Shown in pieces: positions 26,752-28,503 of a stretch of DNA of 64,000 bases. Within the stretch, counting starts at the first letter, position 1. The number at the start of each line of letters is the position of its first letter. The notes below the pieces were generated by a model. The model saw only the letters and a list, made by a program, of their open reading frames with translations. It was not told the origin of the DNA and did no database searches. A program made the translations under genes and the position numbers. Source of the stretch: Lachnospiraceae bacterium (GTDB taxonomy: Bacteria > Bacillota > Clostridia > Lachnospirales > Lachnospiraceae); the NCBI GenBank assembly GCA_902363445.1, contig CABJAB010000003.1:434001-498000 (forward strand), read 5' to 3'.

Positions 26752-27246
26752 CTATCGAGCAATGTACCAATAAAAAGAATCAACCTCTTCATCACTTTTC
26801 CCATTTCTATATTCCCCGGGAACATCACTAATTTTAATATAGCCATTTTTATCGTAAAATTTCACTGCACGTTTATTCTGTGGCGACACATACCAATATA
26901 TCTGTTTGAGTCCAATATCTTCAAGACCCATTCTGACGATTTCATGAATACCATATTTTGAATATCCTTTTCCCATGGCGTCTTTGCCAATTATAATTGC
27001 AAGTTCTGCACATAAATTAATTTTATCAATATTTTTTAGGCTTACCGTTCCCATATATTCATCATCGTCATTTACAATTGCCAAGTGGAGATGATTACTA
27101 TCGTTCTGACTCGCTTCAATAAAGGACCTGCAGTCTGAAATAGACTTATTTGTAAAATCTATTCCCATAAAATGAACAACTGAATCGTCATACATCCATT
27201 CAAGCATCTTTTTAGCATCTTTTAGCTCTAATTTTCTAAGCTTCAT
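26752..27246 (-). CDS. GNAT acetyltransferase, RimL-like
   Basis: 164 aa. A GNAT fold of the Acetyltransf_3 type: [20 protein letters not shown] at the start, acetyl-CoA loop IIIGKDAMGKGYSKYGIHEI, and YWYVSPQNKRAVKFYDKNGY. It is the last gene of the capsule operon, overlapping the acyltransferase stop by 11 bp. In this setting it could N-acetylate an amino sugar, for example the product of the FdtA/FdtB pair, but that is inference. Confidence 0.85.
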   Translation of the reverse strand: MKLRKLELKDAKKMLEWMYDDSVVHFMGIDFTNKSISDCRSFIEASQNDSNHLHLAIVNDDDEYMGTVSLKNIDKINLCAELAIIIGKDAMGKGYSKYGIHEIVRMGLEDIGLKQIYWYVSPQNKRAVKFYDKNGYIKISDVPGEYRNGKSDEEVDSFYWYIAR

Positions 27247-28503
27247 CGTAAGCTCTCTCCATTCTCTTCAGCATCTTTCCATTTAGGTATTTAGATAACG
27301 GTTTCTCGACAAGTTCGTGGAGAAGCACACTAAGGAACAGACAGATTGCAAAAGATACAACCATTTTTACAATCGGCCCGCAAACTTTAATCCCCCCAAA
27401 GAAACTAAAGATAGCTCTACAAAGAGGCCAGGTAAAGAACTGAGCCAAGAAAAACACGTAACTAATCTCAACTCCATATTTGAGAATCCAAAACATACCT
27501 CTTTTCTTCTTAAGAAAAGCAAAATCTAAGCCCGCAAGCGTCATTATCATGGCGGTGAATACGGGAATGCCAATCCAACTGTACAACATGTACATTCCAT
27601 TTGGAATCTTTAGATATCCAGCAAGAGAAACCGCAAACATCAAAAACAACACTTCAATAGCAGCTAATTTATATCTCATAAACCATTTTTTATACCATTC
27701 TTTATCTTTGACACTTATCCAGATACTGCACAACATTCCTCCTATTAAAAATTCGCAAATACGAAATAGAACGTTACTGTAAATATTATCTAAATCAAGT
27801 AATTCTACAACTATTGGTGAATAAAGAAGAATCCCCATCAAAACTGCAATTCCGATCATTCGTCCTCTCAAAGTTAATTGCCTGACAATCCATACCGCAA
27901 ATGGAAACACTATATAACAAAAGATAAGGCATGAGACAAACCATGTTCCATCATTGTGAGACAAATCAAATACTGAGCAAAATACTGATTGAATTCCAAG
28001 TAGTTCAACAGGAAACAGAATAATATTGATTAGAATACTATCCCCTCTTACTATTATCAGATATACTGTATATATAAAGCTTACAACCCAATATACTGGA
28101 ATAATTCCAATAAACTTCTTCGCATAAAAAATTTTTAAATCATACAGATTCCCAATCTCTTTCTTATAATTCGTGAGATACAGAACAAATCCTGATAACA
28201 TAAAGAATGCCGTCATCATCATTGCACCCGCTCCAATAAACACCCGAAAAATGCCATAGGAACATCCTATGTGTGCTGTATGAAAAAGGAAAACAACAAA
28301 TACAGCAAACAGCCTAAACAAATCAAGTCCTATTAATCGCTCTGCTCTGCTCTGCTCTGCTCTGCTCTGCTCTGCTCTGCTCTGCTCTGCTCTGCTCTGC
28401 TCTGCTCTGCTCTGCTCTGCTCTGCTCTGCTCTGCTCTGCTCTGCTCTGCTCTGCTAACAAAGTATTGCCATTTATCATTTCTTTGTCAAGCGTTTTCTT
28501 CAT
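27236..28503 (-). CDS. Phase-variable acyltransferase-3 family protein, currently out of frame
   Basis: The body (27236 to about 28340) is a multi-pass membrane O-acyltransferase (PF01757): [21 protein letters not shown], later [17 protein letters not shown] and eight or more hydrophobic helices. It would add acetyl groups to the capsule or wall. The natural start is the ATG at 28503 (AAAGGAAAG site, overlapping the flippase end), followed by about 16 codons and then 23 GCAGA units (28455-28341). With 23 units that frame ends at a TAA directly after the repeat, and the body lies in another frame. With 22 or 25 units the frames join as ...[15 protein letters not shown]. Only a weak TTG at 28321 could start the body now. 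So the gene is in an OFF state. Confidence 0.85.
28341..28455 (-). repeat. Pentanucleotide microsatellite, (GCAGA)x23 on the coding strand
   Basis: 115 bp of perfect 5-bp units, read as repeating AEQSR in the coding direction. It lies within the N-terminal coding region of the acyltransferase, so any change not divisible by three units switches frame. Confidence 0.98.

Follow-up and report, generated by a model that had tools for sequence, protein, structure and literature searches.

The opa genes of Neisseria carry a CTCTT pentamer in their 5' coding region, within the signal peptide, and these adhesins are switched ON or OFF by frame. In hsdS genes of the EcoR124I type, spacer repeats with a 12-base unit occur and are not known to act as a frame switch. 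Surface variation in gut clostridia is usually ascribed to DNA inversion. Phase-variable acyltransferase-3 genes with short repeats are an already known kind, represented by Haemophilus influenzae oafA and Staphylococcus aureus icaC. According to one review, oafA belongs to a set of genes with tetranucleotide repeats and is linked to O-acetylation of a surface glycan (PMC9558356), and icaC is termed AT3-only there (PMC9558356). In icaC a TTTA repeat shifts the frame through reversible, RecA-independent gain or loss of units (PMC4117637). For Neisseria meningitidis nadA, repeat number is reported to be tied to promoter function (PMC2791445).

The gene described here lies in a stretch of 64,000 nucleotides of Lachnospiraceae DNA (the window). 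It shares with oafA the acyltransferase-3 family and short tandem repeats, along with a predicted phase-variable expression and a glycan role suggested by its locus; oafA differs in being Gram-negative and tetranucleotide, whereas the unit in the window is a pentamer. Like icaC, it is a Gram-positive acyltransferase-3 gene whose frame would shift with gain or loss of repeat units, but in icaC four to six units stand late in the gene and truncate the product from 350 to 303 residues, while the window has a long 5' tract. With opa it has in common a five-base unit in 5' coding DNA; opa differs as a Gram-negative adhesin with its repeat in the signal peptide. The nadA repeats are reported to space distal promoter elements, whereas the tract of the window starts downstream of a −10-like hexamer and tracts of its type often lie inside coding genes. 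As in the HsdS tracts of our survey, the repeats of EcoR124I-type genes fall within the spacer region of the specificity subunit of a type I system. In the open-access library searched, we found no report of repeat contingency loci in Lachnospiraceae or of promoter-locked tracts. If capsule enzymes, secreted proteins and DNA modification are governed by repeat switches, this would add heterogeneity that is hidden by short-read assemblies.

The GCAGA tract and its gene

The tract consists of 23 perfect GCAGA units by direct count (Table 1), and Tandem Repeats Finder gives 23.6 copies with 100% matches and a score of 236. Only two arrays in the window score higher, both of long period (345 and 71 bases). 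The unit is pure, has a length indivisible by three and lies in a 5' coding region, as is characteristic of contingency loci. Chance is no explanation for the tract: when 1.2 Mb of raw sequence of three Lachnospiraceae genomes with tracts was scanned, five arrays with a period of 3–9, at least 20 bases and at least 3.5 copies were found, and three of these were already-known ACAG tracts.

Translation from ATG 28503, which is preceded by AAAGGA at a gap of 7 bases, runs for 16 codons into the tract and closes right after it at TAA 28335–28333. The frame of the acyltransferase body is a different one. It includes the stop codon of the flippase (TGA 28489–28487), and from there to the tract it offers no ATG, GTG or TTG; a TAG ahead of the tract shuts the third frame. 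Because ATG 28503 and the body are in different frames, the gene is OFF in the assembly. The repeat encodes the pentapeptide AEQSR in all three frames and is free of stops, and start and body come into frame at one tract length in three. All of this bears out the first-pass annotation, which had placed 23 units between ATG 28503 and the body, had the start frame end at a TAA just past a repeat open in every frame, and had calculated that 22 or 25 units would restore the frame. The count of 23 is assembly-derived and could be off.

The nearest homolog apart from the gene's own database entry, P0002, is 57% identical and has no repeat. In the alignment it reads ...[14 protein letters not shown], while the window reads ...NGNTLLAE-[tract]-RLIGLD; the N-terminus of P0002 is thus the same as that of the window gene and is fused directly to RLIGLD. 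Since P0002 joins this N-terminus to the conserved GLD..R motif, ATG 28503 is probably the right start, as had been proposed before, and the tract is flanked by conserved coding sequence on either side.

The body runs for 368 open codons and the motifs conserved in its family are intact. Its 361-residue part from TTG 28321 matches PF01757 with an E value of 1.3e-20 (74.2 bits against a curated cut-off of 31). Gly5, Leu6, Asp7 and Arg10 of the GLD..R motif and Phe20 and His21 of the first membrane helix are invariant in 16 of 16 aligned sequences, and we take the arginine and histidine of the acyltransferase-3 motifs to be catalytic. A G-hydrophobic-D..R motif near the N-terminus is found in 149 of 161 fetched proteins; several of the 12 lacking it are truncated calls, including the database call of the window gene itself. 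A search of solved structures returned no match to the acyltransferase at 1e-3. A terminator-like hairpin with a T-rich tail (28271–28255, minus strand) is seen early in the body, just past the tract.

The gene sits near the end of a capsule/exopolysaccharide locus, directly downstream of the flippase gene. This locus further contains CpsB/CapC, Wzz, a sugar transferase, glycosyltransferases, FdtA and DegT, as well as a weak Wzy_C match under its cut-off. Translational coupling of the GNAT acetyltransferase to the acyltransferase is possible and, given their 11-base overlap, the OFF state might also lower the former. A second acyltransferase-3 of the locus (36967–37702, minus strand) is decayed, with its N-terminal part missing and the rest in two frames, and no repeat tract is involved.

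Table 1. Positions of the acyltransferase gene, its tract and neighbouring features in the window
Feature	Position	Strand	Basis
(GCAGA)23 tract	28341..28455; with partial units 28339-28456	-	Tandem Repeats Finder and frame count
Short OFF-frame ORF, ATG 28503 through tract to TAA, 56 codons	28333..28503	-	Frames; N-terminus matches P0002
TTGACA, -35-like hexamer, starts 35 bases before tract	28485..28490	-	
AATACT, -10-like hexamer, 17 bases after TTGACA	28462..28467	-	
Acyltransferase-3 body, from [10 protein letters not shown] on	27236..28342	-	PF01757 and 16-sequence alignment
TTG, possible restart in body frame; AGGA 6 bases upstream; product without GLD of GLD..R	28319..28321	-	
Flippase (polysaccharide biosynthesis protein), stop in acyltransferase body frame	28487..29923	-	PF13440, E 1.3e-17
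GNAT acetyltransferase, overlapping acyltransferase end	26752..27246	-	PF13302, E 6.5e-17
Capsule/exopolysaccharide locus containing the acyltransferase gene	26752..45656	-	Pfam matches

Tracts in homologs, other clostridia and phages

Few members of the acyltransferase family have the repeat, which is present within the first 45 residues of one of 152 homologous proteins (P0021, an NRTEQ repeat at the site before the GLD-type motif) and at three of 51 genome loci of homologs; the other 48 have none, four of the 51 being without usable upstream DNA. The repeat counts 20.5 ACAG units in Eubacterium callanderi, 15 units in Butyrivibrio INlla14 and 4.5 units in a Lachnospiraceae MAG, and in each of them it lies immediately 5' of the GLD-type motif. 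The window gene itself was found in one contig only in the homolog searches that fetched the 152 proteins, and no second copy of its locus turned up. Plasmids gave no match to the acyltransferase protein, and in the nearest sampled genus the gene is present in 0 of 11 species at E 1e-10, an empty answer that by itself shows nothing. Among five sampled members of the genus of E. callanderi, E. callanderi alone has the gene. For relatedness, a trigger-factor-like protein was dropped as a poor marker; metK, matched in 375 of 397 Lachnospiraceae genomes, is closest to G403 (91%) and G107 (90%).

Pattern searches add further acyltransferase-3 ORFs behind tracts, namely L079 and L133 (picked by eye from 19 ORFs) and L227 (E 2.7e-37), so that with L047 and L053 five other clostridial acyltransferase-3 genes have a long tract ahead of the body. 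If a gene is called ON when its body frame contains an ATG no more than 90 bases ahead of the tract, L047, L133 and L227 are ON, and the window gene (seen once), L053 and L079 are OFF; in L133 the nearest ATG is out of frame and the in-frame one lies farther off. The four AMP-binding genes with tracts are divided equally, two ON and two OFF. P0153, known as protein only and found among 7949 candidates sharing most words, is 99% identical to the L047 protein with nearly the whole repeat absent. Copy number differs, always by whole units, in 11 tract pairs among the matches listed whose left and right flanks each reach at least 85% identity, two of them between Lachnospiraceae genomes and nine between viral contigs, one of the nine being the two ends of the same contig.

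The units searched were ACAG, GCAGA, ACAGA and AGACA, the share of other units being taken from the 1.2 Mb only. The claim of the first-pass annotation that pentamer-type switches are rarely reported in Clostridia does not carry over to the tracts, which are not rare: (RCAGA)x5 occurs in 11 of 397 Lachnospiraceae genomes, (ACAG)x6 in 47 of the 397 sampled, or about one species in eight, and a shorter 22-base ACAG pattern in 13 of 391 Clostridia, four of these genomes having been met before. In Bacteroidota, the phylum of Xylanibacter, none of 375 genomes has the 22-base pattern. The reversed control of the RCAGA pattern matches 2 of 397 genomes; both matches are AGACA repeats, preceded at the usual position by TTGACA in G124 and by TTGCTA in G306; for (ACAG)x6 this control is uninformative because reversal gives the same repeat.

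The 19 ORFs of at least 90 codons right after tracts comprise eight restriction specificity, four AMP-binding, two acyltransferase-3 and two solute-binding proteins and three that are unmatched. Genes behind other tracts mostly show, as judged by eye, an N-terminus of the secretion type; four of these genes were tested, yielding LRR in one, VWA and SdrD_B in another and no domain in two. Representatives of phage contigs, among the matches listed, encode a PAPS reductase, a C5 DNA methylase, an N6 methylase with specificity domain and a reverse transcriptase.

ACAG tracts are seen in type I specificity subunit genes (L105, L107, L128, L130, L132, L205 and others), past a YEYYRDxLLTF-like stretch and ahead of the next target-recognition part, where they may alter both the frame and the length of the spacer. 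Leader-type tracts (L075, L077, L080, L081, L109, L111, L112, L117, L119, L196, L206 and L217) begin with the promoter-like element and the tract; by eye, a hairpin-like stretch rich in T often comes next, and a secretion-type gene follows at least 117 bases downstream. After several ACAG tracts, CTGTC and then T runs are noticed by eye. In phage contigs (among L001–L022 and from L240 up), ACAG or GCAGA tracts interrupt PAPS reductase-like genes, DNA methylase genes and one reverse transcriptase gene; at least 58 phage tracts are open on both sides, 29 with the same frame across the tract, among the matches listed.

A promoter-like element at a fixed place

The window carries the element TTGACA-N17-AATACT at 28490–28462 (minus strand). 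On its own this match is no more than chance, since 3.5 kb of the window contains 13 promoter-like sites against 14.5 expected, and its TTGACA is significant only via its fixed place across loci. In 26 of 35 tracts, the window and two homologs included, an exact TTGACA starts 29–36 bases before the tract; any other offset from 6 to 180 accounts for one occurrence in the 35, and 1000 shuffles give a mean of 0.09 and a maximum of 2. This set derives from 41 rows, of which two low-complexity L126 rows, five with fewer than 60 bases upstream and two with N upstream were removed, with the window, L047 and L053 added. In a later set TTGACA is locked in 12 of 17 tracts (10 of 12 in newly surveyed genomes, two of five in genomes met before), which brings the combined figure to 38 of 52. 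Allowing at most two mismatches in a TTG-initial hexamer gives 47 of 52, the exceptions being L104, L112, L124, L125 and L204.

The best −10 hexamer at a spacing of 16–18 has on average 1.87 mismatches, against 3.18 with shuffled spacers (lowest of 500, 2.81). At a spacing of exactly 17, all 13 HsdS tracts have a hexamer with A as second and T as sixth base; among 34 non-HsdS tracts, 21 have this A and 23 this T. Hexamers at the normal spacing of a sigma-A promoter and at a fixed place are therefore found across loci, while the window alone is not above chance.

With at least 60 bases upstream, the tract is locked in 36 of 52 cases in bacteria and in 67 of 127 in viral contigs among the matches listed. 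On the same footing, the mirror control gives 4 of 43 and 2 of 118 and the same-strand downstream control 0 of 43 and 2 of 118 (viral figures among the matches listed), and in contigs above 55% GC one of four bacterial and one of 16 viral tracts, again among the matches listed, are locked. We also counted by homology clusters, because a motif then counts once within one family. The 180 tracts, with the viral ones among the matches listed, form 73 clusters, 34 of which have a locked tract, one that starts 29–35 bases after an exact TTGACA. Drawing one random member per cluster from this same set, with viral tracts among the matches listed, locked tracts number 33.5 of 73 against 1.2 of 64.5 for the mirror, and about half of the clusters are thus not exactly locked. 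Clusters with a bacterial member are locked in 25 of 38 cases, and the cluster-level −10 mismatches are 1.94 versus 3.14 (lowest of 300, 2.65). A first clustering that lumped 148 of the 180 tracts was replaced; the largest final cluster still has 73 tracts.

The position lock is a property of long tracts, as none of 75 short ACAG runs (9–19 bases) in the 1.2 Mb has TTGACA at this place, with 0.24 expected. Duplications of 4–5 bases occur at the start region of four of 55 strong promoters versus six of 220 control windows, which does not establish an enrichment.

A mere codon constraint on TTGACA was considered and rejected, as two codon frames are used and no single amino-acid motif explains it. 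Among 69 ORF-embedded locked tracts, the phage part from the matches listed, TTGACA is in frame 0 in 50 and in frame 1 in 19; the third codon frame would be a stop. Frame 0 is used by 14 of 14 HsdS and 33 of 35 PAPS-reductase-like tracts and frame 1 by 11 of 11 DNA-methylase-like tracts among the matches listed, one member of each group having been tested by Pfam. Of the 34 non-HsdS tracts, 31 have an ATG in the stretch that separates them from TTGACA (shuffled mean 15.9, maximum 24; interval three bases shorter), and in these 31 a transcript from the promoter-like element would start after that ATG.

Interpretation of the tract

The (GCAGA)23 tract is probably a slipped-strand contingency switch of an acyltransferase-3 that would modify the glycan of its locus. 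Situated in codons between ATG 28503 and the body, it would gain or lose five-base units and so shift the frame, and about one length in three would yield a whole protein, bearing a hydrophilic N-terminal tail of variable length; the assembled genome would represent the OFF state. Slippage at this locus, O-acylation and a surface effect are what we infer. A slipped-strand switch predicts a frame-shifting repeat between a homology-supported start and body, ON and OFF relatives, and whole-unit differences. The earlier reading as a phase switch by slipped-strand mispairing gains support from the frames, the ON and OFF relatives and the whole-unit differences at comparable loci. A transcript from the promoter-like element would start past the ATG, so the element itself cannot carry the frame switch; transcription reading through from the capsule operon presumably would.

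It is unlikely that the tract is chiefly transcriptional, with a sigma-A promoter at the element starting RNA at the tract, tract length tuning output or RNA fate and the frame shift incidental. TTGACA does lie at an equal distance before tracts of many unrelated genes, including those at least 117 bases ahead of secreted-type proteins, but the window tract has conserved coding DNA on both sides, the single promoter match there is not significant and the leader folds less stably than shuffles (z +1.99). Quite unlikely, too, is the absence of any switch through a restart at TTG 28321 that gives active protein at every tract length. This start codon has AGGA 6 bases before it and the OFF-frame stop just upstream, yet its product loses Gly5-Leu6-Asp7, invariant in all 16 aligned sequences and part of the motif that the great majority (149/161) of fetched proteins retain, which makes this a weak escape route. 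We give very little weight to a decaying pseudogene whose tract is a neutral or assembly-made expansion: the clearly decayed second acyltransferase-3 and the single contig from which the gene is known speak for it, whereas the open body with its conserved motifs and the recurrence of such a tract at this site in distant relatives, in some of which the gene is ON, speak against it.

The window tract is also one of a wider RCAG(A)-type set in clostridia and phage contigs, lying just downstream of TTGACA-N16..18 and a −10-like hexamer, and its start is where a transcript from the promoter-like element would be expected to begin. Candidate causes for this coincidence are open-complex repeat growth, selection for tract-started transcripts and a factor recognising the motif. 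We favour reading the element as a real sigma-A promoter that either opens DNA, favouring repeat growth, or transcribes into the tract. That repeat growth is coupled to transcription initiation, with an open complex at TTGACA-N17-xAxxxT exposing DNA at the tract start, is a tentative proposal. Under such coupling RCAG(A) tracts would arise, persist and mutate at open complexes whatever the gene and, if true, acyltransferases, surface proteins, restriction specificity subunits and phage DNA-modification genes would have promoter-addressed hypermutable elements in common. With a promoter-like element at a fixed place and two reading frames of unrelated genes, the question of what sets the site of repeat growth becomes directly testable.

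Elsewhere in the window, a 71-base unit is repeated 6.5 times at 96% identity (11798–12259) between metK (10582–11775) and a SAM riboswitch (12401–12504). Adjoining the capsule locus, an ORF on the plus strand (25777–26694) fuses the C-terminal domain of Spo0A to a domain of transposase type, DUF772.
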